From: Bacteroidales bacterium
GTDB lineage: Bacteria; Bacteroidota; Bacteroidia; Bacteroidales; UBA932
Direction: 5' to 3'
Length of the DNA stretch: 45,755 nt
Assembly: GCA_017443845.1 (NCBI GenBank)
Contig: JAFSXX010000049.1
Coordinates: 1-45,755, forward strand
Shown here: piece after piece, positions 2 through 16,395 of the stretch
Layout: every line of letters begins with the position of its first letter
How positions within the stretch are numbered: the stretch's first letter is position 1
The notes under the pieces: generated by a model
Seen by the model: only the letters and a program-made list of their open reading frames with translations
Told to the model about the DNA's origin: nothing
The model's database searches: none
Program-made: the position numbers and the translations under genes

Positions 2-733
2 GTCCCCCAGGCCCCTCCGGGAGACAAAGGCCGGCTCCATAATCTCGGCCAGATGGAAGAGGTCACAAGACGCCTGAGGGAGAAATCCTTCAAGGTATTC
101 GAAGAGGGCAACGTCCAGTTCATCCTGGGCGGCGACCACTCTTGCGCCCTCGGCGTAATGGCGGCCGGATGCGAATATTTCGGCAGGGAGAATTACGGCG
201 TCCTCTATGTCGACGCCCACGGCGACATCAACACCCCCTGGACCTCCAATACGGGCAACATCCACGGCATGTGCCTCGCCGCCCTGATGGGAATCGGCGA
301 CCCCGAGATGACCAGTCTGGTCCGAGAGAAGGCCCTTCCCCGCAATGTGCTGCTTATAGCCACCCGCAGCCTGGACGAAGGCGAGAAGGAACTCATAAGG
401 CAGCAGGGCATAGAGGTGCTGTACGCCGAGGAGATAAAAAAGATAGGCATTGCAGCCACCCAGCAGCGCATAGAGGACTTCATCAGGGAGCGCGGCATCA
501 GGCACTACCACCTGAGCCTCGACATCGACTCGGTGGACCCCTCGGAGGCCCCCGGAACGGGAGTCCCGGAGAGCGGCGGCATCTCGGCCGACGATTTCTA
601 CGACATAGTGCGCATCGCGGTGGCCCGCAAGGAGATCGTTTCGGCCGATATAATGGAATTCAACCCCGCTCTCGACAAAGAGGGCAGGACTGAGGCCATC
701 TGCCGCCGCGCGGCCAATATCATCCTGGCTTAG
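2..733 (+). CDS. rocF: Arginase, N-terminus cut by window edge
   Basis: Arginase hydrolyses L-arginine to ornithine and urea at a binuclear manganese site in the cytoplasm. The frame is open to the left edge of the window, so the first visible ATG at 53 is internal and the true start lies outside. Metal-binding signatures of the ureohydrolase family are in order: GGDHS, DAHGD, and a DIDSVDP segment followed by APGTG. The NIHGM stretch after DAHGD fits arginase better than agmatinase or formiminoglutamase, which is family knowledge applied by eye. The gene ends in TAG at 731-733, three bases from the convergent stop of the HmuY-like gene. Family confidence is high; the exact substrate is somewhat less certain. 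Confidence 0.85.
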   Translation, partial: VPQAPPGDKGRLHNLGQMEEVTRRLREKSFKVFEEGNVQFILGGDHSCALGVMAAGCEYFGRENYGVLYVDAHGDINTPWTSNTGNIHGMCLAALMGIGDPEMTSLVREKALPRNVLLIATRSLDEGEKELIRQQGIEVLYAEEIKKIGIAATQQRIEDFIRERGIRHYHLSLDIDSVDPSEAPGTGVPESGGISADDFYDIVRIAVARKEIVSADIMEFNPALDKEGRTEAICRRAANIILA

Positions 734-736
734 AGG

Positions 737-1120
737 CTACCAGACCTCGAAAAACGAACTGTCCGGAGAGCAAGCCGTCTTCTCCGGACGGTTTATTTCC
801 TCGAAATCCTGATCTGAGAAATAAAGGGCTCCCTCGCCGCAGCCTGAAAGGCCGCCGTTGGTGCGGATATGCCCGTCGCAGATGGCGATATCCCAATCGG
901 TGCGCTGTGCCCACTCGCGCTGGGCAAGGGTGTCGCTGAGGGCGCAGACCCCGACCTGGATGCCCTCGCGCAGGGAGATGTAGGTCCACTGGCCGCGGAC
1001 ATCGTCCACTACGATCTCCCCTTCGGAATAGATGCGGCCGTGACCGCCCGGTCCGTGCGAATTGTCGCAGGATATCAGCAGCAGGGCAGCGAAAAACAGA
1101 TATAAAAAACCGCGTTTCAT
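737..1120 (-). CDS. Short HmuY-like lipoprotein
   Basis: A 127-residue protein with a lipoprotein signal (hydrophobic stretch then LLISC, Cys18), so it should be lipid-anchored to the outer membrane. The body contains TYISL, TDWDIAICDGHIRTNGG and a SGCGEGA stretch, which match the central conserved block of HmuY-family hemophore lipoproteins (TDWDIAF...TNGG...SG). HmuY of Porphyromonas binds heme and hands it to a TonB receptor. This protein is clearly shorter than the usual roughly 180-220 residues: it ends soon after the conserved block, so the C-terminal half of the fold is missing. It is the last gene of the long minus-strand operon, one base after the papain-like protease gene, and ends in TAG. 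Heme binding is inference. Confidence 0.6.
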   Translation of the reverse strand: MKRGFLYLFFAALLLISCDNSHGPGGHGRIYSEGEIVVDDVRGQWTYISLREGIQVGVCALSDTLAQREWAQRTDWDIAICDGHIRTNGGLSGCGEGALYFSDQDFEEINRPEKTACSPDSSFFEVW

Positions 1121-1121
1121 C

Positions 1122-2618
1122 TTACTTCCTTACCTGATACCTTATTACCCTCTTCCCATCTTCTGCAGAGGGGTTGAAAATGAATTTGCCGGCGCGCCCG
1201 TCGGCCGTGCGGACCACGTAGGTCCCCTTCTCGTCCTGCGAAGCGTCGGAATAGGTATAAGCCGACACGGGAACGCTGAATAGCGGCTTCGTACCCAGGG
1301 AGAACCAGTTGTTGCCCCCCTCGATGCGGGCCGGAAGTGGACCGCGGTAGGGATACTCCACGGGTTCTCCGGAGCGGTAATCGATGAGAGACAGGGCCGT
1401 GACGCTGCCCTCCCCCCTCTTCTTTCCCGCAACGCTCTTATTGACGTTCAGGAAATAGCGGCCGTATTCCCGCGAGATATCCATCGTCTCGGTCAGATCA
1501 ATCGCAAGCTCGACTTCGCTTCCGAAATAGGCTCCACGCATCGGATAGTCGCCGCCCTGGTTGTCGAAGGCCGCCACCGGCTTGACCTTGTCGGGATAGG
1601 TGGAGCCCTTGTCGGAACTCAGGCCGGTCTGGAAACGCAGGTCGTCGCGGGAGGTGTAATCTACCGCCACCTTGAATACCACTTTCGGCTCGTGGATGCG
1701 CACCCTGACCCCCTCGACGGTGTTGCTCAGCTGCGTATTGGGGACGCTCTTGTCCCTGAAAAAGTCGTAGGGCAGGTAATAATGGCCGTTGTCGTGGCTC
1801 CAGGTTCCCCAGCTGTTGACCACTATGAAGGCTCCCTCGTGGGTGACTCCGTCCCTGTCGGTATAACATACCGTATCGTCATATCCCACTATGGTCATCG
1901 CGTGGCTGCCGTCGATGGCCAGGGAGGTAAGGAGGGAGTGATATCCCGTCTCGGAAGGGCCGTCATAGTAGTTGTCGATGACCCATCCGGTGCTCATTGC
2001 GGAAAATGTCAACACCCCGCCCGCAGCGCTGCCGTCGCCAGCATCGTAGAGATAGCGCTTCATAAGGGGGATGCTGTCGTCGTAGATGAGGATCTCGGAG
2101 GCGCGGTAGCGGATGGCATTGAGATACTTCTCATAGCCGGTGGCCCACTTGAAGACCGCCGCACCAGATGCGCCGTAATCGGCTACCGTCATCATTCCGT
2201 AATTGCGGGCGAGCATAAGCCCCTGGTTTACGAAACTGCCCTGGTCCTCGCCCTCATTGACCATATTCCAGGAGAACTCGTAACTGAAGCGGTTGGCATC
2301 GGAGGAGGCGTCACGGTCGAGCAGGCGGTTGACCTCGTAGGTGAACATATAGCCGATTCCCGAAGCCTGGGCGCAGGAGCCGCCGGACTGGTTGAATATG
2401 GGCGGGAAATACTTGAGTCTGGAATTATCCACCGAAGTGGGAAGCGGCTTGTCGAGAGCCCTCGAAGGGGTGAAACGGACCCTCTGCCGCAGGATTTCGG
2501 CCTGGGCCGGAGTGACCTCGCGGCCCGCGAAACGCTGCGGCGAAACTGCCTGCGCGCCGCCGGGCAAAGCGGCGGCGCACAGAAGCAGCAAAACGGCTAT
2601 GAAGGACTTACTCCGCAC
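1122..2618 (-). CDS. Secreted papain-like cysteine protease (C1-type)
   Basis: A 498-residue protein with a clear signal peptide (residues 1 to about 24, ending GGAQA). The papain triad is readable: oxyanion Gln77 and catalytic Cys82 in FNQSGGSCAQ, His239 in GSHAMTIVGYDD, and Asn268 in VVNSWG. This marks an exported clan CA, family C1-like peptidase. The C-terminal 200 residues after the catalytic domain look beta-rich and were not recognised. The only start that preserves the signal peptide is GTG at 2618, which overlaps the stop of the upstream C25-like gene by 11 bases, so the two are probably translationally coupled. The next gene starts one base after its stop. The target is unknown; the neighbours suggest a heme- or iron-containing host or diet protein, which is inference. 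Confidence 0.8.
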   Translation of the reverse strand: MRSKSFIAVLLLLCAAALPGGAQAVSPQRFAGREVTPAQAEILRQRVRFTPSRALDKPLPTSVDNSRLKYFPPIFNQSGGSCAQASGIGYMFTYEVNRLLDRDASSDANRFSYEFSWNMVNEGEDQGSFVNQGLMLARNYGMMTVADYGASGAAVFKWATGYEKYLNAIRYRASEILIYDDSIPLMKRYLYDAGDGSAAGGVLTFSAMSTGWVIDNYYDGPSETGYHSLLTSLAIDGSHAMTIVGYDDTVCYTDRDGVTHEGAFIVVNSWGTWSHDNGHYYLPYDFFRDKSVPNTQLSNTVEGVRVRIHEPKVVFKVAVDYTSRDDLRFQTGLSSDKGSTYPDKVKPVAAFDNQGGDYPMRGAYFGSEVELAIDLTETMDISREYGRYFLNVNKSVAGKKRGEGSVTALSLIDYRSGEPVEYPYRGPLPARIEGGNNWFSLGTKPLFSVPVSAYTYSDASQDEKGTYVVRTADGRAGKFIFNPSAEDGKRVIRYQVRK

Positions 2619-4776
2619 GCAGGCGCTTGAAAGTCTTTGCAGCCTCCTCCCTTACAGCGGCGCTGTAAGCGGGATCGGAAGCGATCTCTTTCATTGCGGA
2701 AGCCACCGAAGCGGCCTGGCAGCTGGTCGGATGCCATCCGAGGGCCTCGATAATGAGGATCTGGGTCGGCTCGTCGGCTCCGTTGCGGATGAATTCGACC
2801 ATCCTGGGCATCAGGTGATGGATGGGGACGTTGCGGGTTGCGCGGACCGCCATCTTGAGTTCCTTGGGATTGGCTCCGGGAACCAGCAGGGTGTCGAGCT
2901 CGGCCGCAATACGGTCGTTGTGTACGATAGCCTTGCGGATAAGGGTCTTGACCGAGTCCTTGCGGATATACTGGATAGCGTCGCTGTCGAACTGGCGCTC
3001 GAACTCCTCGAGCAGCTTGTCATTGGGGAAAGATTGCATCGACTGACCGGCGTCGAAGGTGCAGCGGTCGCTCGTATTGTTGGCGATGGAGACCTCTATC
3101 AGTTCGGGAATAAGGCGCTCGTCGCCGCTGAGGCCCATATATTTGATGGCGAAGCGCTGGATAAGCTCGTTGGCGTCCTTGGAGGCGAGTTTCAGGAGAG
3201 AGACGAAATTGTCATCGGCGAAATCGGCCAGCGACCGCATCGCCTGCAGGCGTACCACCACATAGGGCGAAGTCTTGTAGAGTTTGAGAAGCTCATCGCT
3301 GCCGATGGCATTCAGCTGGTGGAGTTCCTCGATGGCGAGGGCCTGCTGCTCGGGAGTACCCTTTTTGAGGAGTTTCTTCCAGGCTGCGGGCTTCTTGGCA
3401 ATGATCATGTGGTCGATGTCCACCGCGCCCGCTTCAGGTGCGAAACGGAAGGTGGGATCGCCTATCAGGGTAGATTCCAGATAGGTGCTGTAACGGGCCA
3501 TGTCGCCGGCGCAGCCACCCTGGTCGAGCAGGCCGATGAAACGGTCGCTCCATTTGTCCTGCAGCGAGTTGACCGTATTGGCAAGGACCGCCACGGTACC
3601 GCCAGGCTGGAAAATGTATTCGTCGGCGATGCAGTCGTCGAGATGGAAGGAGCCGCAATAGCAGGCGTCGATGATCACTACCGGCACGTTGGGACGGTAG
3701 CCGTAGAATGCGAAGTCGTCCACATAGAGGTCGGCGGCAGCGTCGTAGAGCGAGTCAACTACGGCGAGGGAGTCGCTCAGGGCGTCTTTGGCCCACGATT
3801 CGGGAAGGTCGAAACGCTTCAGGAGGGCGGTCTTGACCGAATCGGCATTGCGACCGCGCTTGTAAGCCCTGTAAACGTGGTCGCGGATATTGCGCATGAT
3901 GTAATCCTTGGCCTCGTTCACCATATAGGGACGGATCGTGCCGTTGAGATACTGCATATCAGGGCTGCCGTGGTGATGCAGGACGGCGACGTCTAGGTCG
4001 GGCCTCATCAGCTCGCTCATCAGGTGCTCCTTGACGGGATTGTAGTCGGTATGGTCGAGATATCCGATCCTGTCGCGGCCGTCATCCAGGATGGGGAAAT
4101 GCTCCATGAAGACCTGCTTCTCGTCGATGCGGGCCACCTTGGAGTCGGAAATATATCCGTGGCCGCTGAAGTAGAAGAGATGGTCCACCGACTGGGGATT
4201 GAGCTTGACCCTGGTCGCTTTCGTGAGGAAATCCCTCAGCTTGACATAGCGCGACACTCCGCCTGCATCCGTCGGGCGGATACGTCCGCTATAGATGTCG
4301 GGACGGGTGCGCTGGGCGCCGCCGGAGGTTATCGAATAGTAGTAATAAGGCGCATCGTCATCTTTGTCCAGATACTTGAAAGCCAGTTTGAAATCGTCGT
4401 AGAAACGGTCCGAGGGGATGGAGGATTCCTTGCGGGGCTTGGTCTGGTCCATCTTGAAGGCGCTGGTCATGTGCTGGCCGTCGCGGAGCATCGCAACGGG
4501 GATGTCGCCCACCAGTACGGCTCCGACTATGGGCTCATTTTTCTGGATGTAGAGCCTGTAGAGCTCGGCGCGGAGCGAATCGGGAACTCCCCAGCGGTCG
4601 ATCACCGTATATACTTTGAGTCCGTCCTGTTTTTCGATGGCGGCGGCATAGGCGTCGATCTGGGCCTTTGCCTCCCTGTAGCTTGCGGGGTCCACCACTA
4701 TGGCGAATCCGTCACGCGCGCCGGCGCTGAAAGCCAGCGAAAGGAACAATGCGAAGAGTGTCGTTATCCTTTTCAT
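2608..4776 (-). CDS. Gingipain-like (C25/clan CD) protease with helical-repeat tail, copy 2
   Basis: A 722-residue exported protein (signal peptide about residues 1-20). The first 460 residues resemble C25 peptidases: a His-Gly dipeptide after a hydrophobic strand (His269 in HHHGS) and an Ala-Cys dipeptide (Cys372 in IDACYCGSF), the two hallmarks of clan CD. An IGDPTF segment closes the domain, as in gingipain-like proteins. From about residue 480 to the end the sequence is a run of short amphipathic helices resembling HEAT repeats. No type IX secretion C-terminal domain is visible, so it may stay periplasmic or leave by another route. It is a paralogue of the upstream gene, 16 bases away, and overlaps the papain-like gene. 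Catalytic activity and substrate are inference from motifs. Confidence 0.72.
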   Translation of the reverse strand: MKRITTLFALFLSLAFSAGARDGFAIVVDPASYREAKAQIDAYAAAIEKQDGLKVYTVIDRWGVPDSLRAELYRLYIQKNEPIVGAVLVGDIPVAMLRDGQHMTSAFKMDQTKPRKESSIPSDRFYDDFKLAFKYLDKDDDAPYYYYSITSGGAQRTRPDIYSGRIRPTDAGGVSRYVKLRDFLTKATRVKLNPQSVDHLFYFSGHGYISDSKVARIDEKQVFMEHFPILDDGRDRIGYLDHTDYNPVKEHLMSELMRPDLDVAVLHHHGSPDMQYLNGTIRPYMVNEAKDYIMRNIRDHVYRAYKRGRNADSVKTALLKRFDLPESWAKDALSDSLAVVDSLYDAAADLYVDDFAFYGYRPNVPVVIIDACYCGSFHLDDCIADEYIFQPGGTVAVLANTVNSLQDKWSDRFIGLLDQGGCAGDMARYSTYLESTLIGDPTFRFAPEAGAVDIDHMIIAKKPAAWKKLLKKGTPEQQALAIEELHQLNAIGSDELLKLYKTSPYVVVRLQAMRSLADFADDNFVSLLKLASKDANELIQRFAIKYMGLSGDERLIPELIEVSIANNTSDRCTFDAGQSMQSFPNDKLLEEFERQFDSDAIQYIRKDSVKTLIRKAIVHNDRIAAELDTLLVPGANPKELKMAVRATRNVPIHHLMPRMVEFIRNGADEPTQILIIEALGWHPTSCQAASVASAMKEIASDPAYSAAVREEAAKTFKRLRAE

Positions 4777-4792
4777 ATATCCGTTTATGTTG

Positions 4793-6967
4793 TTATTTCA
4801 ATCTCTTGAGGGTTTTGAGGGCCTCGCGGCGGACCGCCTCCGGACGGGAGGGATCATCCGCGATGCTGCCGGCCACATCGCGCAGGGCATCGCTCCTGTA
4901 TCCCAGTCCGTGCCACCCGAAGGCGCTCAGGATCGTGACCAGGTCGGCATTGTCGGTGCAGTGCGAGGCGTATTCCGCCATCTTCGGGGCGAGGTAGGGC
5001 GGCAGATAGATCTTCATGAATCCAAGGCGCGAACGGCGGAAACCGTCCGAAGCCTTGCCCGTCGCTATCTTTTCGTAATCGTCATCCCACCGTCCGGCAT
5101 AGGTTTTCACCTCGCGCAACTTTCCCTGCACGTAACCGTCAGGACGGACCACATAGGGCCGGATGCTGTCGAGGGCTTTCTCAACCGCGGGGACAATCTC
5201 TTCCGAAGGGAAGAACTGGACCGCCTGCATGGCATTGAAGGCGACCCTGGGCGAGGTATTGTTGGAGGCGATCAGCCTTGCCAGGACCGGGACCAGGCGG
5301 GGATCGCCGCTTCGAGGCATCTCGTTGACGGCGAATCTCTGGAGCAATTCGAAGGGGTCGTCCGAAGCTTCGAGGATGGCATCGGTCATTACCGAAGCGT
5401 TGCGCGCCTTGAGCACTTGGAAGGCCTCGAGGCGGACCAGGCCGTAGGGATTGTCGCGCAGGATCGAGAGCAGCTCGGCATTGGAGAGCAGGGGGCTCTC
5501 CTTGAGCATTTCGAGGGCCATTACCTGCACATCGGGAGCCGCGTCGCGCGAGAGGATCTTCTTCCATTTCCTGGGCAAGGCGGCGATTATCATCTCATTG
5601 TAATCGGGAGTCTCCTTCGGCGCCGCGAAGACGAAAGTCGGGTCGCCTATGACGTGCATCTCCAGGTCGATGTTGTACTGATTGACAATGCCGACCATCA
5701 CCCCTTCGGCCAAAAGGCCCATCAACTTGTCGGGCCACTTGTCCTGAAGCACGTTGACCGAGCCGCCGATACCGGCTATGGTCTTGCCGCTCTGGAAGAT
5801 ATATTCGTTGGCTATGCAGTCGTCGTTGTTGAAGGCGCCGTTGTAGCAGGCGTCATAGATGGCGACACGGCAGTTGGGTTTGTAGCCGTAGTCGGCGAAG
5901 TCCTTGAGGATCAGGTTCAGCGAGTCTGCCATAAGGTCTTCCAGCTGCAGGCCGCGCTGCGAGGCGGCCTCACTCAGCCATCCCTCCGGCAGATTGTATT
6001 CCCTTTCGAGGACCATCCTCACGCTGTCCACGTCCTGGCCGTAACGCACCGCGGTGGCGAATCGGTTGCGGTAGCAGTGCATCAAGAAATCGAAGGCCGC
6101 CTGGGTTCCCACCGGCTTGGGATAGGACGAAAGGTACTGCGTATCGTAATCGCCGTGGTGATGCATAATGCCCACGCTCAGATCGGGACGCATCATCTCG
6201 TTCATGAGCCGCGTCTTGATGAGGCGCTCGTCGGAATAATCCATGTAGCTGACGAAGCCTCCGCGGGCCGTAAGGAGAGGGAAGTGCTCGCCGAGGCTCT
6301 TCATCTCATCGATATGGGCGGGTTTGGACTCATTGAGGCTGCCGCTTCCGGTATAGACAAAAACCCCTTTGAAGGGCTCCTGATTGCGCTTGGCCGCGGT
6401 GGCTTTGCGGAGATAATCGCGGAGCTTGTCATAGCGCGAAGTGCCTCCCGCATCGGTGGGGCGGATGCGCCCGCTGAAGATGGAGGGGCGAAGGTACTGG
6501 TTGCCCTCCGCTGCGAGGGAATAATAAAAGAGCGGCGCGATGCTGTCCTTTTTGAGGAAGTCGAACTTGAGGCCGAAGTCGTCGTAGTAGCGGTCCGATG
6601 GGACTGAACTCTCGACCCAGTCGCGCTTCTGGTCCATCTTGAAGGCGCTGGTCAGGAACTGGGCATCACGAATCATCGGGATAGGAATGTCGCCTATGAA
6701 AACCGCGCCGGCGATGGGATCCTTCCTGAGTCCGTAGAGTTTCTTGAGCTCGGCCCGGATGGAGTCCGGAACGCCCCAACGGTCGATGACGGTGTAAACC
6801 TTGAAGCCCTGCACCTCTTCGAGAGCCTTGATATACTCCGCCAGTTCAGCGGATGCCTCCCTGCTGCTGGCAGGGTCTATAACTACGGCAAAGCCTTTGC
6901 GCTGGGCAAAGGCCGGGGAAAGCATCAGCAATGCTGCCGTTATGATGAGGAATCGCCTGATTCTCAT
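4793..6967 (-). CDS. Gingipain-like (C25/clan CD) protease with helical-repeat tail, copy 1
   Basis: A 724-residue paralogue of the next gene with the same layout: signal peptide to about residue 21 (ending PAFAQ), a C25-like domain, then HEAT-like helices from about residue 485. The clan CD dyad is His271 (MHHHGD) and Cys374 (DACYNGAF); the second motif is very close to the gingipain nucleophile signature A-C-V-N-G-x-F. Both copies share long stretches such as KVYTVIDRWGVPDS, TSAFKMDQ and SGRIRPTDAGG, so this is a tandem duplication that has since diverged. It starts 5 bases after the DUF6850-like gene, which indicates one transcript. As with the other copy, no type IX sorting domain is seen. 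An alternative is a non-proteolytic C25-fold protein, but the dyad looks intact. Confidence 0.72.
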   Translation of the reverse strand: MRIRRFLIITAALLMLSPAFAQRKGFAVVIDPASSREASAELAEYIKALEEVQGFKVYTVIDRWGVPDSIRAELKKLYGLRKDPIAGAVFIGDIPIPMIRDAQFLTSAFKMDQKRDWVESSVPSDRYYDDFGLKFDFLKKDSIAPLFYYSLAAEGNQYLRPSIFSGRIRPTDAGGTSRYDKLRDYLRKATAAKRNQEPFKGVFVYTGSGSLNESKPAHIDEMKSLGEHFPLLTARGGFVSYMDYSDERLIKTRLMNEMMRPDLSVGIMHHHGDYDTQYLSSYPKPVGTQAAFDFLMHCYRNRFATAVRYGQDVDSVRMVLEREYNLPEGWLSEAASQRGLQLEDLMADSLNLILKDFADYGYKPNCRVAIYDACYNGAFNNDDCIANEYIFQSGKTIAGIGGSVNVLQDKWPDKLMGLLAEGVMVGIVNQYNIDLEMHVIGDPTFVFAAPKETPDYNEMIIAALPRKWKKILSRDAAPDVQVMALEMLKESPLLSNAELLSILRDNPYGLVRLEAFQVLKARNASVMTDAILEASDDPFELLQRFAVNEMPRSGDPRLVPVLARLIASNNTSPRVAFNAMQAVQFFPSEEIVPAVEKALDSIRPYVVRPDGYVQGKLREVKTYAGRWDDDYEKIATGKASDGFRRSRLGFMKIYLPPYLAPKMAEYASHCTDNADLVTILSAFGWHGLGYRSDALRDVAGSIADDPSRPEAVRREALKTLKRLK

Positions 6968-6972
6968 TATTG

Positions 6973-8538
6973 TCAGAATTTAAGATAAACTCCGGCAAGG
7001 AGTCCGGTCAGGGACGTTCCCCTGTACTGCGGCCAATACTCTCCGGTGCCGGTATAAAACTCATACTGCCCCTTGATGAAAAGGCCCGGGGCCAGCCTCT
7101 TCCCTGCCGGGAAATTGAAATCGAGCAGGGCGTGGACGAGGGCGCGCGAGGCGCTCTCGTATTCGAATCTGTGCCTGCAATAGATGTCCGTAATATTGTC
7201 TTCGCCCGAGAAGGCACATCCCGAGCCGAATTCCGAGCCGAGAGGGAGACGGTACGAGCCGCCTATCTCGGCCGTGAGGAGGCTTCTGCCGAAAGCGAGC
7301 GACTTTCCGGCCAGAAGCGAGAAATCGAGAGCCGTGATTTTCTGGACCGGAGTCGTCCTGCCCAGATAGTGTTCCGACGAGCTCATCGCAAAGCGGGCGT
7401 CGGCACCGGCATAGAAATCGCGGCGGAGACCGCGGGTAATGTCGAACCTGTAGGAGGCATCGGCGCTGATACGGTAATCGGACTGTATCGTATTGGTGCT
7501 GAGGACCTCGTAATAGATCCTGCCGCCGTGTTCCATATCGGCCTGGCGGCGCTGGTCGCTCCACAGCGCGTTGCCCATAGCGAAGGAACCCGAGAGGGTG
7601 ATGTTGTGGCGGATGCCGTAATCGCCGCGGATCAGGAGCCTGTTATAGAGCCCGGCTTCAAGCTTTGTAAAATCGCCGCCCCTGAAAAGATAGGACTGGT
7701 CGCCGTCCCTGGCATCCTCGCCGGAATAGGTGAAACTCAGCTCCACGAAATCTTTCACGTCGCCCGAGCCGATCATGGCACTGAGGGCGGCGGTGAGGGC
7801 GAGTCCGTTGTAATCGCGTTTGTAGCCCGACTCATCCGAGGTGGAACGCTTCATATAGTCGCCCATTCCCTTCATTATGAAATACCTGTGTCCGACCAGC
7901 GGCTGTACGTTATAGAACGCCACGGAGGAGGAGAAGATGCGCGCCTTTGCGGCAAAGCCCAGCTCCAGGGAGGGGCTCGTCCTCCAGGTGAGGCCCGCGG
8001 TAACGGGAATCACCGATGAGACGGTGGAGGGGCGCGGGTCGCTCTGGTCGCTGCGCGAACCTGTGGTCACTCCCGCTTCCAGACCGGCCTTGAGCCGGTC
8101 TGAAATGCGGTATGACCCCGCGGCCGCAAGGTCGAAGACCTCGGTGGTGACATTGCCCGGAAGCGAATCGCAGACAAAGAAGGGATTGTCGGGATCCTTG
8201 AAGAGCGAGGAGTTCCAGCGCTGTCCGTCCTGGCGGCCGTTGGTGTAACGGAAGACTCCCGAAAGGCTGAACCGTCCGATGCGGCGCAGGCCGGAAAGGT
8301 CGGCCTTGAAGGTGCCCTCGCTGCCGCTCGCGTCTATCGCGTGGAACTCCCCTTTCGAGAGGCCGTAGTCCAGCGAAGCGACGCCGTAGTCCTGCATCGC
8401 GTTGCCAGAGAGGCGCACGGGATTGAGACTTTCGTATGCGGCGTTGTCAGTCCAGTTCACATATCGTTCCTGATGGGTCTGGGCTCCGAGAGGGAGCGCT
8501 GCGGCCAGCAGCAGGATTACGGGAATCTTCCGTTTCAT
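6973..8538 (-). CDS. DUF6850-like outer-membrane beta-barrel protein
   Basis: A 521-residue protein with a signal peptide (residues 1-19, ending PLGAQ). The rest alternates short beta strands rich in aromatic and Gly residues and ends in an aromatic C-terminal residue (YLKF), typical of an outer-membrane barrel. Segments such as RYVNWTDNAAYESLNP and FNVQPLVGHRYFIMKGMGDY-type text match what I recall of the DUF6850 family of Bacteroidota barrels, which often neighbour DUF4876 proteins and TonB receptors. Its role is not established. It sits 24 bases after the DUF4876-like gene and 5 bases before the first C25-like protease gene, so it belongs to the same operon. It may be a channel or partner of the receptor. 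Confidence 0.65.
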   Translation of the reverse strand: MKRKIPVILLLAAALPLGAQTHQERYVNWTDNAAYESLNPVRLSGNAMQDYGVASLDYGLSKGEFHAIDASGSEGTFKADLSGLRRIGRFSLSGVFRYTNGRQDGQRWNSSLFKDPDNPFFVCDSLPGNVTTEVFDLAAAGSYRISDRLKAGLEAGVTTGSRSDQSDPRPSTVSSVIPVTAGLTWRTSPSLELGFAAKARIFSSSVAFYNVQPLVGHRYFIMKGMGDYMKRSTSDESGYKRDYNGLALTAALSAMIGSGDVKDFVELSFTYSGEDARDGDQSYLFRGGDFTKLEAGLYNRLLIRGDYGIRHNITLSGSFAMGNALWSDQRRQADMEHGGRIYYEVLSTNTIQSDYRISADASYRFDITRGLRRDFYAGADARFAMSSSEHYLGRTTPVQKITALDFSLLAGKSLAFGRSLLTAEIGGSYRLPLGSEFGSGCAFSGEDNITDIYCRHRFEYESASRALVHALLDFNFPAGKRLAPGLFIKGQYEFYTGTGEYWPQYRGTSLTGLLAGVYLKF

Positions 8539-8563
8539 AATTTGAATCTGTCGTTGTTAATGA

Positions 8564-9763
8564 TTAGTCAACGCTGGTGGGAACAAGACCGGGAGTATTG
8601 TCCTGGTTCGACTTGAAGTCCACCGAAGAGTTGTTGGTGTCCTGATAGTAAACGCGGCCGCCTTCGATCTTGGAGACTTTGCGGCGTACGCACTTGCCTG
8701 CATAGGACTGGGGAGCCTCGATTCCTGAAGCGTCATCCTTGGGAAGGAAGAAAGGATAGTGCTCGGAGAGGGCTACGCCGTTCTGGTAAACATCCACTGC
8801 ATCGAGGACATACTCGTTGGGGACGATCATATTGAGCATAGTCGAGGAGCTGCCGGGAGTGGTGGAGAAGTTGTTTTCGTCGGCTGCGAACTGCGAAGGA
8901 GTCATGCCTTCGGGGAGTTTTACGAGGAAGAATGCCCTGCCGGCTGCGCCGAAGGCCCACATCTTCATATTCTTGTTGTTGGAATAGACAACCTCCATAT
9001 TGGGAACTGCCTCATTGTCCACATCGCCGTTGCCGTAATACTTCTCGAAGTTGGCCTTGGAGAGGTCCGGGCTCTTTGCGTACTCGTCCTTCTTGGACTC
9101 GTCTGCGCCGTAAGCGAGCTTGTGGTTCATAGCCTGGTCGGCCATAATGACAAACTCACCGGGCTGGATGGGATACTGCTTGCCGTTGCCGGGGAATGCG
9201 ATGACGGTACCCTGACCGCACTGATACTTGGTAGGATATGCTTCCTGCCATACGCTCTGTGCCTTGAGGTTAGCAAGGCAGGCAACGAGTACAAGGCCGT
9301 CGAGATACTGGACCTCGTCGGAGTTGTTGACGATCTCCACATAGCTGTCAAGCACATAGTACTGCGCACCGCCGGAGCAATAGATGGTCTTGAATACGAG
9401 CGGGCTGCTGTAGAAGAGCGAGAGGTTGACGGTGAGGGCCTCCTCCTTGTAGAGGGAGACGGTAGCCGTACCCTGTACCTGTGCGGTAGCCTGGCCGTTG
9501 ATCTTACCGTTTACGGTCACATTGTAGTTGCCCTGGGGAAGGGTCACCGAAGTTTCGCGGATAGCTTCGAGCTTGAGGGTGTCGGAGGAGGTCTCACCGG
9601 TGATGATGACGACAAGGTCCTTGACATCCGATGCGGTCACATCCGAAGCAGTGGTGAACTTGAGGTCCAGGGGATAGGATTTCACTTTCTCCTCGCCGCA
9701 GGACGAAAGTGCAAAGACTCCTGCTATCAGGAGCAATGCCAGATTGAGAATTTTCCTTTTCAT
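8564..9763 (-). CDS. DUF4876-like surface lipoprotein
   Basis: A 399-residue lipoprotein: hydrophobic leader then LSSC (Cys21) followed by GEEKV. Residues about 30-115 look like an immunoglobulin-like or carrier beta domain. After that, VEIVNNSDEVQYLDGLVLV resembles the start of a lamin-tail-like beta sandwich, and the end (RRKVSKIEGGRVYYQDTNN, then DF and NTPG) resembles its last strands. This matches the DUF4876 pattern as I remember it. The gene lies 32 bases after the receptor stop and 24 before the DUF6850-like gene. In this position it probably acts as the surface binding partner of the receptor, in the way SusD-type or HmuY-type lipoproteins do; that role is inference and no ligand can be read from the sequence. 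Confidence 0.65.
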   Translation of the reverse strand: MKRKILNLALLLIAGVFALSSCGEEKVKSYPLDLKFTTASDVTASDVKDLVVIITGETSSDTLKLEAIRETSVTLPQGNYNVTVNGKINGQATAQVQGTATVSLYKEEALTVNLSLFYSSPLVFKTIYCSGGAQYYVLDSYVEIVNNSDEVQYLDGLVLVACLANLKAQSVWQEAYPTKYQCGQGTVIAFPGNGKQYPIQPGEFVIMADQAMNHKLAYGADESKKDEYAKSPDLSKANFEKYYGNGDVDNEAVPNMEVVYSNNKNMKMWAFGAAGRAFFLVKLPEGMTPSQFAADENNFSTTPGSSSTMLNMIVPNEYVLDAVDVYQNGVALSEHYPFFLPKDDASGIEAPQSYAGKCVRRKVSKIEGGRVYYQDTNNSSVDFKSNQDNTPGLVPTSVD

Positions 9764-9795
9764 TGTGATAATAATTTAAGTAGGATTGTTATAGT

Positions 9796-12639
9796 CTAAA
9801 GTTTGATCTTGACCTCTGCGCCGAAATACATCGGAGGATAAATCTGCTGCATCGCGAGGCTTTGTTTTATATGGTATTTCTTGGTATTGGTCACGTTGTT
9901 GGCAATGAACGAGAGGTCCGCCACCTTTCCGATCTCCTTGGTGAGGCGGAAATTGAGCATCGCCCAGGGCTCGATCACATCCTTCGCGAGGTTGTAATCC
10001 TTGACGCGGTTCATATAGATGTACAGGAGGCTGTTGGATGCGGCGGCCTCGCTCCACTGATACCAATTGCCCTCTAGGTCGTAGTAGCCCAGGGGATCGG
10101 CGCAGATATAGTCGCCGTCGGGGAAATTCCTCTCATAATAGCGGCTGTTGCCGTTCTCATCCTCATAGACCGACTGTACGCTCTCCATCCATACGACCTG
10201 CAGCGTGGTGGTGAAGACCATCCTCAGGGCGGGGATGCGGGTGATGAAGGCGAAGTTCGTATTGACGCGGTCCCTGACGCTTCCGCTGCCCGCGGGCTGC
10301 TTCACCATATAGAAATTGGTCTGGCTCAGGCGGGTGTTGATGCTCACGTTGTCGTATTCATCTATGCTCGAAATGCGCTTGATGTGGAACCACGCGCCGG
10401 TGATATTCAGGCTGGTGCGGAGCGGTTTCCATTCGCCCAGGTCGAGGGTATATTCGATTCCGGACTTGTAGGACTCGTAGGTGTTGGAGGGGATGCTCCA
10501 CCCTACCCTCTCGAGATAGGTTGCGCTCGTCGCCGTGCCGGGCACTCCGTTGAGCAGGTAGTTCACCTGCTTCGAAGCGGCGTCGAAAGAGAGGTTGCGC
10601 GCTCCCTCGGGAACGGTATAGTAAGGATACCATATATCCATCATCCGGCTTTCGAAGCCGTAGCAGTCGGTATGCTTCTCGTTGAAGAATGTCACGGAGC
10701 CCTTTACCTGCCCCTTCGCGAAGGAGAGGCCGGCCTCCCACTTGCGGCTGTGCATCGGCTTGAGATTGGGATTCTTGGTCTCGCTCACTATGGTAGTTGT
10801 AACCAGCGCGAGGCGGTCCTGCTCATTGTCGCTCCAGCGGCCGAGGGCCACATTGTCGTAGTAGGCATTGTCGGGATAGAGATAGATGAGCGAGGGCATC
10901 TTGTTCATCAGGCCGTAACCGCCGCTGAGGCTCAGGTCGTCGAGGAAGCGGTTGTTCTTGCGGTTGAGGATATTGAACGAGAAGTTGAAACGGGGTTCAG
11001 CCGCGAAATAGCCGCCCACTCCCCCGCTTTTGGCCTTGTCGAGGAAGAGGTTCGAGACCCTCACTCCGGCCTCGACCATCGCCTTGTGGGAGCCGACGGC
11101 GAAGGAGGTACGGTCGCTGAGGAAGGCCGAAACCGTCGAAAGGCCGGGAATGTCGGTGTATGCGCGGGGACGCAGGGTGTGCGAGGACTGCGCCTGCGGA
11201 GGATTCTCCTCGTCGTAGGTAAGGCCCGCACCGATATTGCCGTCATAATTATACTCCACGCCGAGCTTGATATTGGTATGGTTCTCCTGGCCGAACTGGA
11301 TGTACTTGGTGGCCAGCAACTGGGCGAAGACATTCACCGGTATGCTCTCTATCTCGAATTCGGACTGATATCCGAAACGCTTGAAGCGGGCCACCTGAAG
11401 CCCCTCCTCGCGGGTATTGGTAATGACTCCGTCGGGATTGTAAATCCACTGCGACTTCCAGTCGTGCTGTCTGGAAATCTGGCCGCTGACCTTGTAATCG
11501 AGGCTGGTGATAAAGCCGCCGGAGGGCCTCCAGCTGCCGTTGACGCCGAGGCGGCCGCCGGTATTCTCATTCTTCCACTCGGCGAAGCTCTCGCTCATCT
11601 GGGGGTCGCGCTTGGTATTGTTCAGGCTGGTGAAGAAGGCCGCGCGCAGGTTGAAGCTCACAGGTCCGAACTGGTTGGAGTAGCCGGCCGAGGCCGTGAT
11701 GCGGTCGTATCCCTTGTAATGCAGACGGGTATCGGACCAGGACTGGGCCCAGTCAACCGAGAAGTTGGTGGCGCCGCCCGAAGTGAGGTTGAAACCCTTG
11801 CCCAGATAGAGCATCTTGGAGTTGGGGTCGGCCTGAGCCTTGAACTCCCACGGGGTATAGCCGGACTTCGTCTTGACGATGACGGCGCCGCTGGTGAGGT
11901 TTCCATACTCGGCTGCCGGGATGCCGCGGATGACCTCCATCGATTCGATGTTCTGGCCGCTGATGAGCCTCAGGTCGGTTCCCTTGCCTCCGGTGGTATT
12001 CTCTCCCATCTGCTGGGTGGACGCATCGGCATTCGAGCCGTAGCGGTTCGCATTGAGCACCTGCAGGTTGCCGTCGTTGCTGATGGGCGCGCCGTCCACT
12101 ATGACGGAGGTTCCCACCGCGTAATTGTTGTTGCCCTAGGTGTCGATCTCGCGGATCATCGCCTGAGAGAGGTTGTTGAGGTTCGGACTCGAGACCAGGT
12201 TGCCCGGCACCAGCTGGAGCATATCTCCCAGATTCTTGGGCTGAATATGGCGGATGGCGTCCTGGTTGATCACCGAACGGCTTCCCACCTGGTCCTGCTG
12301 CGCGGTAACGACCGCGCCCTCGAGGCTCAGGTTGGACTCACGCATCGTGACGGACACCCTTACGTTCGAAGAGGTGATGGTCAGGGAATCGGTAACGGTC
12401 TCATAACCGAGGAGGCTCACGCTGTAAACGTATCTTCCGGAGGGGACATTGTTGATGGTACAGATGCCCTTCGCCCCCGTCATACCGTAAAGGGCCTGGT
12501 TGAGAACTGCGGTGGCCAGTTCCACAGGGTTGGAATTTGTATCTTTTACCTCGAAAACAACTGTGCACCCCCTGTTCTGCCCCTGAAGGGGAGAGGCGAG
12601 CATAAGTGCGACCAATACCGTATATAGAAATCTGTTCAT
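9796..12639 (-). pseudogene. TonB-dependent receptor interrupted by in-frame TAG
   Basis: Reading through one stop gives a 947-position TonB-dependent outer-membrane receptor. It has a signal peptide (residues 1-20), a carboxypeptidase-D-like regulatory beta domain (about 22-110), a plug (about 115-250), then a beta barrel ending in an aromatic-poor VKIKL. The TAG at 12138-12136 falls in the plug: MIREIDT, stop, GNNNYAVGTSVIVDGAPI. Frame is retained on both sides and the residues flanking the stop are continuous plug consensus, so this is a single nonsense change, not a frameshift. TAG ends at least four other genes here (arginase, HmuY-like, yitT, trpS), so recoding is unlikely. GTG at 12117 could restart translation but would lack the signal peptide. 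A sequencing error remains possible. The gene heads the operon, so the downstream genes can still be transcribed. Confidence 0.8.
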
Positions 12640-12727: not shown

Positions 12728-12735
12728 CAAATATA
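12728..12735 (-). promoter_or_regulatory. Candidate -7 box for the receptor/protease operon
   Basis: The minus strand reads TATATTTG, a full match to the Bacteroidota -7 consensus TAnnTTTG, about 90 bases upstream of the receptor start at 12639. A weak ATTG at 12757-12754 lies 18 bases upstream as a possible -33 element. It sits between the terminator after the acyl-CoA dehydrogenase gene and the receptor. Confidence 0.5.
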
Positions 12736-12858: not shown

Positions 12859-14562
12859 TCAAGCCTGATAGTTGGAAAGCATCGCCGGATCGGAGGATTT
12901 GATGAATGAGGAGTGTCCCTCGACCTGGGCCGCAGCATAAGCCAGATAGACATCCGCGCTCTTAAGGAGCAGTTCCGGAGCCTTCGCTGCATCGCGGAGC
13001 AGAAGGGCTCCCATCACGCAGTGGGCCGCCATCTCGACAAGCCTGCGGGCCTGGAAATCAAGCCAGTCCTGATCCTTTACGGCGGTTACGGCCTCGGTAG
13101 CCGCGCGGAACTTGGCGAGCATTTCGCGAAGCCTCTCCTGACGGGATGCGAACTCAGCGGGAAGAGCCTCTGAGAGCATCTCCTCCACCATCGATGCATA
13201 AGTTTCGTTGGTGACATAACGGATCGCGGCGACGACCTGGAGCTGGGTGGTACCTTCATAAATAGAAGTGATACGGGCGTCGCGGTAAAGTCTCTCGCAG
13301 AGATAATCGCGCATAAAGCCCGAACCGCCGTGGATCTGGATGCAGTCGTATGCATTCTGGTTGGCGAATTCGGAACTCATTCCCTTGGCGAGCGGGGTGA
13401 GGGCGTCCGCGAGGCGGCTGTAGCGCTTGCACTCCTGCCTCTCCTCAGGGGTAAGGGTGCGCTCGCGGGCGATATCCTCGAGACTCTTGTAGATGTCCAC
13501 GAAGTTGGCGGTCTCGTAGAGCAGCGAACGGCTGGCCTCGAGCTTGGCCTTGATCATCGCGATCATCTCGTAAACAGCGGGGAAATTATCTATGGTCTTG
13601 CCGAACTGCTTGCGGTCGGCGGCATAGGAAAGGGCTTCCTGAAGCGCTGCGGAGGAGATTCCTACGCTCTGGGCGGCGATGCCCAGGCGGGCGGCGTTCA
13701 TAAGCGACATCACATACTTGATGAGGCCGAGTCGGCGGTCGCCGCAGAGTTCTGCCTTGGCATTGTTATATACCAGTTCGCAGGTCGGAGAGCCGTGGAT
13801 GCCCATCTTGTCCTCGATGCGGCGGACGGTGACACCGCCTTCCCTCTTGTCGTAGATGAACATCGAGAGGCCGCGGCCGTCGGTGGTGCCCTCTTCGGAA
13901 CGGGCCAGGACGAGGTGGATGTCGGAGTCGCCGTTGGTGATGAAACGCTTGACGCCGTTGAGCCTCCAGCAGTTGGCCGCTTCATCGAAAGTGGCCTTGA
14001 GGGCTACGCTCTGCAGGTCGCTGCCGGCATCGGGCTCGGTGAGGTCCATCGACATCGTCTCGCCGTTGCAGACGCGGGTGATGAAGCGATCCCTCTGGTC
14101 GTCGGTTCCGAACTCATAAAGGGTGCAGGCGCAGGACTGGAGTCCGAGCAGGTTCTGGAAACCGGCATCGGCCCTGGAGATCAGCTCCGAAGCGGCGCAG
14201 AAGATGGTGCTGGGCATATTCAGGCCACCGTAACGGCGTGGCATCTCGATGGCCGTGAGGCCTGCCTGACGGCATATCTCGAGGTTCTCCGCGGTGCCGG
14301 GGGCATAATGCGCCCTGCCTCCGCTGCACGAGGGACCGGTGCGGTCCACACCTTCCGAATTGGGAGCGATGACATTCTCGCTTATATCGCCCACTATCTC
14401 GAGTACGCGGTCGTAATTGTCGAGCGCGTCCTCAACGTCCACGGGGGCGTAATCATACTTGAGAGCATCGGCAAATCCGTGCTCCTTGAGCTCCACGATG
14501 TGTTTCATCAGCGGATTCTCGAGGCGCAACTTTATTTCGGGTGTATCTTTATACCAATTCAT
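12859..14562 (-). CDS. Acyl-CoA dehydrogenase
   Basis: A 567-residue FAD enzyme that oxidises an acyl-CoA to the 2-enoyl-CoA and passes electrons to ETF. The N-terminal helical domain, middle beta domain (MDLTEPDAGSD, about residue 170) and C-terminal helical domain are present. The catalytic base appears as Glu436 in IYEGTTQ, the usual site for short/medium-chain types. The extra C-terminal helical segment of about 110 residues is common in the longer FadE-like bacterial members. Its ATG overlaps the etfA stop (TAATG), so it is coupled to its electron acceptor. Chain length cannot be told from sequence. The operon ends in the terminator at 12789-12817. Confidence 0.9.
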   Translation of the reverse strand: MNWYKDTPEIKLRLENPLMKHIVELKEHGFADALKYDYAPVDVEDALDNYDRVLEIVGDISENVIAPNSEGVDRTGPSCSGGRAHYAPGTAENLEICRQAGLTAIEMPRRYGGLNMPSTIFCAASELISRADAGFQNLLGLQSCACTLYEFGTDDQRDRFITRVCNGETMSMDLTEPDAGSDLQSVALKATFDEAANCWRLNGVKRFITNGDSDIHLVLARSEEGTTDGRGLSMFIYDKREGGVTVRRIEDKMGIHGSPTCELVYNNAKAELCGDRRLGLIKYVMSLMNAARLGIAAQSVGISSAALQEALSYAADRKQFGKTIDNFPAVYEMIAMIKAKLEASRSLLYETANFVDIYKSLEDIARERTLTPEERQECKRYSRLADALTPLAKGMSSEFANQNAYDCIQIHGGSGFMRDYLCERLYRDARITSIYEGTTQLQVVAAIRYVTNETYASMVEEMLSEALPAEFASRQERLREMLAKFRAATEAVTAVKDQDWLDFQARRLVEMAAHCVMGALLLRDAAKAPELLLKSADVYLAYAAAQVEGHSSFIKSSDPAMLSNYQA

Positions 14563-15584
14563 TACTTCGTCAGGTTTTTGTAGTGAGCAATCAACTTGGG
14601 AATGACATCCTCCACGCGGCCAGTGACCACGTAGTCGGCGATGCTGTTGATGGGTGCGTCCGGATCGCTGTTGACCGATATGATGATTCCGCTCTCCTTC
14701 ATTCCGGCGATATGCTGTATCTGGCCGGAAATACCGCAGGCGATATAGAGTTTGGGACGGACCGTGAGGCCTGTCTGGCCTATCTGGCGGTCGTGGTCGC
14801 AGAAGCCGGCGTCAACCGCTGCGCGGGTGGCGCCCACCTCGCCGTGGAGCAGCTTGGCAAGCTCGAAAAGTTTGTCGAAGCCCTCGCGGCTGCCCATTCC
14901 GTATCCTCCCGCCACGATGATGTTTGCCGTATCGAGATGATGCGAAGGCTTCTCGACGTGGCGCTCGATCACCCTGACCAGAAGGTCTTCGGGTGCGATA
15001 TACTTCGATACATCGTGGCGCACGAGTTCGCCCTTGTATGCCGCATCGCGGATCTCGCGCTTCATTACGCCCTCGCGGACGGTAGCCATCTGCGGACGGT
15101 TGTCGGGGTTCACGATGGTGGCGATAATATTTCCGCCGAAGGCGGGGCGGATCTGGTAGAGCAGATTCTCATATACCTTGCCACTCTTCTTGTCCTCATA
15201 TTCCCCGATTTCGAGGGAGGTGCAGTCGGCGGTAAGGCCGCTGTGCAGCGACGAGGAGACGCGGGGACCCAGGTCGCGGCCTATGACGGTCGCGCCCATA
15301 AGGGCGATCTGCGGCTTCTCTTCGGTAAAGAGTTTGGTAATGATGGCCGCGTGCGGGGCCGTGGTATAGGGGAACAGTGCGGCATCGTCGAAGACGTGCA
15401 CCCTGTCAACCCCGTAGGGATAGAGGTCGGCTTCGATGCCTTCGAGGCCCGATCCTATGGCCACAGCCTCAAGGGCGCAACCAAGCCGGTCTGCCAGGGA
15501 ACGGCCCTTGGTGAGCAGTTCGAGGCTCACGGGGGCCACATTGCGGCCCTCGGTTATCTCACAATATACAAATATGTTGTCCAT
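14562..15584 (-). CDS. etfA: Electron transfer flavoprotein, alpha subunit
   Basis: A 340-residue ETF alpha subunit. The C-terminal FAD domain is recognisable from GGYGMGSREGF (about residue 212) and the CGISGQIQHIAGM motif near residue 275, the family signature for FAD binding. It pairs with EtfB, encoded 4 bases upstream, and accepts electrons from the acyl-CoA dehydrogenase encoded immediately downstream. Order etfB-etfA-dehydrogenase with overlapping or nearly touching genes implies one transcript from the promoter near 16425. Whether this ETF is of the bifurcating type cannot be decided by eye. No quinone-type ETF dehydrogenase gene is in the window. Confidence 0.93.
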   Translation of the reverse strand: MDNIFVYCEITEGRNVAPVSLELLTKGRSLADRLGCALEAVAIGSGLEGIEADLYPYGVDRVHVFDDAALFPYTTAPHAAIITKLFTEEKPQIALMGATVIGRDLGPRVSSSLHSGLTADCTSLEIGEYEDKKSGKVYENLLYQIRPAFGGNIIATIVNPDNRPQMATVREGVMKREIRDAAYKGELVRHDVSKYIAPEDLLVRVIERHVEKPSHHLDTANIIVAGGYGMGSREGFDKLFELAKLLHGEVGATRAAVDAGFCDHDRQIGQTGLTVRPKLYIACGISGQIQHIAGMKESGIIISVNSDPDAPINSIADYVVTGRVEDVIPKLIAHYKNLTK

Positions 15585-15588
15585 AGGA

Positions 15589-16395
15589 TTATCCGATTGT
15601 GTGGTTCGTGATAAGTTCTTCTACGAGGCTGCGGATATCTTCGTCCGAAGAGGTGCAGCGCTTGCTCTCCTTTGCCTGGAAGCTGATGCTGTCCACCTTC
15701 TTGACCTTGGTCGGCGAACCTGAAAGGCCGCACTGCGCGGGATCGGCATCGACATCGGCCACGCTCCAGGCTGTGACTTCGGCCTTCTTGCGGGCCATGA
15801 CCAGCTTGGCGTTGCGGGGACGGCACGCGGCTGCGGTGCCGTTGACGGTAAGGAGCACGGGAAGCGGCGCCTCGACGGTCTCGACGCCTCCGGTGATGGC
15901 ACGCCTGAGGGTGATCTTACCCTCTTCGAGGGCGAGGATCTCCTCGACGTAAGTCACCTGCGGCAATCCCAGTTTCTGGGCCACCTGCGGGCCTACCTGG
16001 GCCGTATCGCCGTCGATTGCCTGGCGGCCTCCGACTATGATATCGAAGCTGCCGGCCTTGCGGAGGGCCGATGAGAGTGCGTATGAGGTAGCCAGGGTAT
16101 CGGCTCCTGCAAAAAGCCTGTCGGTGAGCAGGTATCCGGTATCGGCTCCGCGGAACATTCCCTCGAGCACGATCTCCTTGGCCCTCTCCGGGCCCATAGT
16201 AAAGACCGTCACAGTGCTGCCGGGACACATATCCTTGAGGCGGAGCGCCTGCTCCAGGGCGTTCATATCCTCCGGGTTGAAGATAGCCGGAAGGGCCGCC
16301 CTGTTGATGGTGCCGTCCTCGTTCATGGCATCCTTGCCCACATTGCGGGTATCGGGAACCTGCTTGGCCAGGACGGCGATTTTCAAAGATTTCAT
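15589..16395 (-). CDS. etfB: Electron transfer flavoprotein, beta subunit
   Basis: A 268-residue EtfB with the family N-terminus KIAVLAKQVPDT and the segment GGRQAIDGDTAQVGPQ (about residue 122), which forms the nucleotide-binding part of the beta subunit. It is the first gene of etfB-etfA-acyl-CoA dehydrogenase, with a TATCTTTG -7 box 27 bases upstream of the ATG. The long-chain acyl-CoA synthetase gene lies directly upstream on the same strand but is separated by a terminator-like hairpin, so the synthetase and ETF genes form adjacent units of one functional block. The presence of the DGDTAQVGP motif supports a working subunit. Confidence 0.93.
   Translation of the reverse strand: MKSLKIAVLAKQVPDTRNVGKDAMNEDGTINRAALPAIFNPEDMNALEQALRLKDMCPGSTVTVFTMGPERAKEIVLEGMFRGADTGYLLTDRLFAGADTLATSYALSSALRKAGSFDIIVGGRQAIDGDTAQVGPQVAQKLGLPQVTYVEEILALEEGKITLRRAITGGVETVEAPLPVLLTVNGTAAACRPRNAKLVMARKKAEVTAWSVADVDADPAQCGLSGSPTKVKKVDSISFQAKESKRCTSSDEDIRSLVEELITNHTIG

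Follow-up and report, generated by a model that had tools for sequence, protein, structure and literature searches.

A Bacteroidales operon with a TonB receptor, gingipain-fold and papain-like proteases, and an HmuY domain apparently divided over two proteins

Results

The operon and its genes

The window analyzed here is a 45,755-nt stretch of a Bacteroidales contig, and the element under study is an operon at positions 737–12639. Its seven genes all lie on the minus strand, with spacings of 32, 25, 5, 16, −11 and 1 bases. They encode a TonB receptor in two pieces (12136..12639 and 9796..12117), a DUF4876 lipoprotein (8564..9763) with the lipobox LSSC followed by GEEK, a DUF6850 protein (6973..8538), two C25-type proteases designated copy a (4793..6967, with a HEAT-repeat tail) and copy b (2608..4776), a papain-like protease (1122..2618), and a short HmuY-like lipoprotein (737..1120) with the lipobox LISC. 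Signal peptides were recognized by eye in the 5′ receptor piece, the DUF6850 protein, copy a and the papain-like protease. An earlier sequence-only reading, made without database searches, had named these genes and noted their tight packing on one strand, and both points were confirmed by the spacings and by Pfam, including the matches to DUF4876 (PF16215, 144.5 bits), DUF6850 (PF21012, 262 bits) and the HEAT tails (HEAT_2, 41.1 and 45.1 bits).

An HmuY domain in two pieces

The short lipoprotein was correctly assigned to the HmuY family in that reading, but it is only half a HmuY. Its match to Pfam PF14064 scores 38.9 bits (cut-off 27) and covers positions 4–60 of the 157 in the profile. All 30 members of the short lipoprotein family match HmuY at E≤0.01 and share an invariant lipobox cysteine and 12 other invariant columns; the relatives measure 112–153 aa over their longest frames. 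In the window's own genome, which is 93% complete, this gene is the sole HmuY match at E≤0.001. Shortening of the gene by an assembly error was ruled out, because the relatives are equally short and the missing strands sit on the neighboring protein.

That neighbor is the papain-like protease. Unexpectedly, seven of 24 papain-like proteins that were scanned matched HmuY, and in three of ten scanned singly the match spanned model positions 64–155 and extended almost to the C-terminus of the protease. Family profiles were then compared with a profile of 25 collected full-length HmuYs. The lipoprotein family aligned to HmuY columns 17–137 (probability 99.8, E 7.5e-29) and the protease family to columns 178–221 (probability 95.2, E 2.7e-8). 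Of nine control profiles, reversed or unrelated, eight stayed at a probability of 4.2 or below; the ninth, DUF4876 against HmuY, reached 88.8, but this match was confined to the signal peptide and lipobox (HmuY columns 13–43). A second comparison with ten HmuYs agreed, placing the lipoprotein at columns 5–129 and the tail at columns 164–208 of 213, and the real tail scored 96.8 against 2.4 for the best of 120 column shuffles. In the same operon of genome G096, the raw Pfam model matched positions 2–73 in a 131-aa frame, with the match crossing one TAA, and positions 98–157, under the cut-off, in the adjoining 526-aa frame. By the family-profile comparison, the predicted HmuY C-terminal strands of the window's protease are residues 461–498 (1125..1238, minus strand).

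The HmuY domain is therefore not complete in one chain: an N-terminal half and C-terminal strands reside on two proteins and the middle is missing. The positions of the haem-iron ligands, given as H134 and H166 (or Met) in excerpts of PMC2671838 and PMC8911585, fall between the two aligned pieces. At R79 and Y80, listed as haem contacts in part of PMC2671838, the window protein has D and G when aligned by eye.

Gene order and coupling of the two halves

A C25-HEAT protein was found in 15 of 61 related genomes. Three of these (the window, L032 and L033) have the full seven-gene order, and ten have C25-TonB-DUF4876-DUF6850-C25-C25, one over two contigs and one with its DUF4876 missed by the gene call. 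One genome from another family has TonB-DUF4876-DUF6850-C25-C25, and the last carries only a fragment. When 84,980 species genomes were scanned with a ten-protein C25-HEAT alignment, 454 relatives were obtained, and the best 80 were kept as 77 distinct loci, all selected on C25. By strict gene calling, DUF6850 is present in 70, TonB and DUF4876 in 63 each, C1 (the papain-like family) in 51 and an HmuY-like gene in 41. The order TonB-DUF4876-DUF6850-C25(n), with one to five C25 copies, occurs in 62 of the 77 loci, and exactly TonB-DUF4876-DUF6850-C25(n)-C1-HmuY in 33. The loci are not all independent, because L047 and L048, to judge by their lengths, are apparently identical to the L033 and L032 contigs, and L057/L058 and L059/L061/L118 resemble near-duplicates. 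Successive family genes are separated by a median of 12 bases (352 spacings under 2 kb). Gene order conservation is far above chance, and the co-occurrence on which the sequence-only reading had staked its system is borne out in related genomes.

Coupling between the HmuY half and the protease was assessed by a six-frame search across the loci. An HmuY N-terminal half follows the protease in 48/48 loci with a complete protease; in three further loci with a protease and no HmuY half, the contig ends inside the protease. The half was found in 0/26 loci lacking the papain-like protease. Of these, 20 are informative; in the other six, the sequence stops inside C25 (three loci) or no more than about 0.7 kb beyond it (three loci). 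Detection of the tail was partly by construction, since 23 of the 24 proteases used for the tail model came from the tested loci. A model of the HmuY C-terminus built from full-length HmuYs matched 11/48 proteases (best 6e-9). No frame fusing both halves was found in the 79 loci scanned.

The operon occurs in many gut and oral bacteria. The whole set including C1 and the HmuY half is present in, among others, Paraprevotella clara, P. xylaniphila, Hoylesella buccalis, Segatella maculosa and Alistipes sp. An66, and in Bacteroides fluxus only C25 accompanies the core (TonB receptor, DUF4876 and DUF6850); the system is therefore testable in culturable bacteria. In an even sample of 198 genomes from the phylum, C25-HEAT matches were detected in 10 (3 full-length) and C1 matches in 36, full-length only in the window's genome. 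The protease modules are less common than the core, and in the genomes examined they are mainly a Bacteroidales feature. A link to the P. clara trypsin-degradation proteins 00502/00509 (PMC9477747) was considered, because locus L057 has the same contig accession, and set aside: TonB, C25, HmuY and DUF4876 occur zero times in that text. Among the papers listed by searches of the open-license PMC literature, none has a title or abstract start dealing with this operon or with a split HmuY.

Two kinds of cysteine protease

The C25-HEAT proteins have the gingipain catalytic-domain fold with its His/Cys dyad, in support of the sequence-only call of C25-like proteases. Against PF01364 (cut-off 23), copy b scores 28.4 bits and copy a 15.4 bits, under the cut-off; among 40 homologues, 11 match at E≤0.001. 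In the ranked structure-alignment lists only chains are given, and the absence of other families from them carries no weight. In the papain-like protease, the Gln, Cys, His and Asn active-site residues (Q77, C82, H239 and N268 in the window) are kept in 52/52 family members. In a comparison with PDB chains, the family profile hits Lpg2622 and others of papain type. Peptidase_C1 (PF00112) gives 13.9 bits (E 0.056) for the window protease, below the cut-off of 20.7; 8 of 24 homologues match it at E≤0.01.

As in the sequence-only reading, no type IX sorting domains were seen: TIGR04183 was found in 0/40 C25-HEAT homologues and nowhere in the window's own genome, and copy a has no sorting tail. 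SprA was detected in 0/37 genomes of the genus (51–98% complete), while the same search found it in 24/24 genomes sampled from other families of the order. Type IX secretion has apparently been lost in the window's genus, and a model of surface gingipains was set aside after these searches.

Four or five tandem C25-HEAT genes are present per operon in L095, L110, L111, L114, L117, L119 and L120; such arrays suggest local duplication and divergence. In relative G018, the first C25-HEAT gene (L033 4476–6640) is split into two open frames. In L101, L103, L106 and L107, C25-HEAT genes lie among a different set of neighbors.

The receptor and its partners

A TonB receptor is present as previously described (barrel match 45.8 bits), though not as one open frame. 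The 5′ piece, with a CarboxypepD_reg_2 domain and the start of the plug, stops at an in-frame TAG (12136–12138), and the 3′ piece, in the same phase, holds the remaining plug and the beta-barrel. In two relatives of the same genus the gene is uninterrupted and encodes about 955 and 957 aa. TAG is read as stop in this operon, because the HmuY-like gene ends in TAG after a tryptophan that is also terminal in 14 of 29 aligned relatives. The TAG in the receptor may be genuine, strain-specific or due to misassembly.

A lipobox pattern is found in 58/62 DUF4876 homologues, and 46 of the 62 have at least two acidic residues after the lipid cysteine. DUF6850 is probably an outer-membrane barrel. A second TonB-DUF4876-DUF6850 cluster in the window's own genome (L173 4440–12583, contig C12) has a Peptidase_S46 gene (620.8 bits) directly after it, so the core is joined there to an unrelated protease; S46 enzymes are dipeptidyl peptidases. 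In two other genomes (L171 2758–12667 and L172 1577–9399), a YCF48/BNR-repeat protein carrying a type IX sorting tail comes after the core. The pairing of the core with differing secreted proteases or other secreted proteins merits a survey.

Promoter and upstream region

A single operon, as had been proposed, is supported, and one promoter candidate in front of it is plausible. The candidate −7 element TATATTTG lies at 12728..12735 on the minus strand and was recognized by the Bacteroidota consensus; a sigma-70 scan gave no promoter in this region. A terminator-like hairpin (12798–12776) stands upstream of it. Within 600–9900, promoter-like sites (5 versus 3.8 in shuffles) and terminator-like sites (7 versus 7.5) are about as frequent as in shuffled sequence. 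Farther upstream on the minus strand (12859–16395) are an acyl-CoA dehydrogenase gene (Pfam) and, by eye, two genes resembling electron-transfer flavoprotein subunits.

Discussion

By its sequence, the operon consists of a conserved core (TonB receptor, DUF4876 lipoprotein and DUF6850), between one and five C25-HEAT proteases whose catalytic dyads are intact and, in a subset, a papain-like protease with the C-terminal part of HmuY as its tail and then a lipoprotein equivalent to the HmuY N-terminal half. We lean toward the view that it encodes a protease-coupled TonB-dependent import system in which the papain-like protease is tethered by half-HmuYs assembled in trans. The two halves would join into one beta-sandwich: sheet I of HmuY comprises strands 1, 6 and 13–15, and by residue number the lipoprotein would supply strands 1–6 and the protease tail strands 13–15. 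Because strands 7–12, which bear H134 and H166, are missing from both halves, the complex would anchor the protease by its lipid rather than bind haem. The receptor and the DUF4876 lipoprotein may capture a surface-bound protein or peptide. After import through the receptor, it would be degraded in the periplasm by the C25 and C1 proteases, freeing a cargo that is most likely iron or haem. The proteases are placed in the periplasm because they have signal peptides (by eye) and no type IX export route.

More specifically, the HmuY palm formed in trans may hold the papain-like protease at the outer membrane beside the TonB receptor. Together with the gingipain-fold HEAT proteases, they would form a Bacteroidales machine for the import of intact iron proteins and their periplasmic digestion. 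We advance this fuller version tentatively, as a possibility somewhat short of an even chance. The earlier proposal of protease-assisted haem or iron acquisition survives in part, through an indirect link to iron. According to portions of PMC10434189, BT1933-39 of B. thetaiotaomicron (HEAT protein, DUF4876, TonB receptor) rose 3.5–7.4-fold in iron depletion and PG1019-22 of P. gingivalis (DUF4876, TonB receptor) 20.8–214.5-fold. A DUF4876 gene is also among the haemin-responsive P. gingivalis genes tabled in part of PMC10470040.

Several observations weigh against the import system as proposed. The iron response belongs to clusters matched by annotation, not by sequence, and in excerpts of PMC6793856 PqqL and YddB of E. 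coli gave no growth support in iron-limited LB. In the window genome the receptor gene is interrupted by a stop. The HmuY matches in protease tails are below the Pfam cut-off (best 20.3 versus 27 bits, in 3/10 proteins), the HmuY C-terminal model misses 37/48 proteases, including the window's closest relatives L047 and L048, and the case for the window's own tail comes from the family profile. Structural alignment of the lipoprotein to HmuY 3h8t covers residues 35–162, which puts its last strand past H134 in that alignment. At least two acidic residues follow the lipid cysteine in 19/30 short lipoproteins, a feature shared with the 46 DUF4876 proteins and resembling the Bacteroides lipoprotein surface-export signal. 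It could mean surface exposure, a poor fit with a periplasmic protease, since the tethered protease would then have to be at the surface too. A loose lipobox pattern also fits 49/139 C25 proteins, although not the window's two, so some of them may be lipoproteins. Finally, in 5/77 loci C25 has no core genes in view, and C25-HEAT genes also occur outside the operon, because four of these loci (L101, L103, L106 and L107) have other genes on both sides. DUF6850 occurs in 21/198 phylum genomes (15 over the cut-off) and full-length C25-HEAT in 3, so the core occurs without C25.

Of the alternatives, general foraging fares best. Captured peptides or proteins would serve as amino acid sources, digestion being completed by the periplasmic proteases with no special part for iron. 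The number of proteases per operon and the second core with an S46 peptidase would suit this explanation, but the iron induction of related clusters in two species (in the PMC10434189 excerpts) and the haemin-responsive DUF4876 gene (in the PMC10470040 table) speak for iron proteins as the favored substrate, and we regard plain foraging as unlikely. Less likely still is haem acquisition in the manner of Porphyromonas, with surface gingipain-like proteases freeing haem that the HmuY-like lipoprotein binds and hands to the TonB receptor. The proteins resemble those families, P. gingivalis gingipains and HmuY cooperate according to part of PMC10100897, related clusters respond to iron (portions of PMC10434189), and the 93% complete genome offers no second HmuY match at E≤0.001. 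On the other hand, the sequence-only reading's parallel with gingipain/HmuY logic is not supported as such. Haemophore function and surface gingipains cannot be taken for granted, because the ligand positions lie between the halves, the C-terminal strands are on a protease and SprA was found in none of the 37 genomes; the D and G at the R79/Y80 contacts and the lack of a type IX route add to this. It is very improbable that the short HmuY is what remains of a decayed gene and that the protease tail is an unrelated beta-hairpin resembling HmuY by accident: the tail match extends over a mere 41 columns or so, below the Pfam cut-off, but the invariant columns, the 48/48 versus 0/26 coupling, the shuffle result and an identical missing segment throughout the family all argue otherwise.

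If the proposed import system is real, two families of unknown function, DUF4876 and DUF6850, would acquire one, and gingipain-fold proteases would be seen to work apart from type IX secretion. Protein-piracy import would extend past Proteobacteria and M16 proteases, and the HmuY halves would be a natural case of a domain divided over two genes and put to new use in anchoring a protein.

Among known systems, hmuYRSTUV likewise pairs a TonB receptor with an HmuY-type lipoprotein, but none of hmuS, T, U and V is among the seven genes here, proteases are added and HmuY is split. The one CobN-type gene of the window's genome (1304 aa) lies on a different contig (C54), in the region L169 6372–13648, with CbiK-like, TonB receptor and cobyrinate synthase genes beside it by eye; it may be an HmuS or belong to a cobalamin route. 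HmuY itself and the Bacteroides fragilis proteins BfrB and BfrC (PF14064) share the N-half sequence and fold, whereas here the domain spans two polypeptides, with its C-strands on the neighboring protein and the thumb and fingers with the haem ligands missing. The gingipains RgpB and Kgp share the catalytic-domain fold and the His/Cys dyad; the proteins here differ by a HEAT-repeat tail, by having no type IX tail that could be found, and by a genus in which SprA was found in 0/37 genomes. BT1933-39 and PG1019-22 are alike by annotation in their TonB receptor, DUF4876 and, for BT, HEAT-repeat protein, but no protease or split-HmuY content is described for them in the available portion of PMC10434189. 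The closest parallel in logic is Fus and YddB-PqqL, in which a TonB receptor is co-encoded with a signal-peptide protease (signal peptides being recognized by eye in our case). Expression of PqqL and FusC is iron-dependent, and ferredoxin import followed by periplasmic cleavage has been shown, as recounted in parts of PMC6793856. Those proteases are M16 metalloproteases of Proteobacteria, whereas the operon described here combines C25 and C1 cysteine proteases with DUF4876 and DUF6850 partners in Bacteroidota. On our best reading, it may represent the FusA/FusC logic carried out with unrelated cysteine proteases and a split-HmuY tether.
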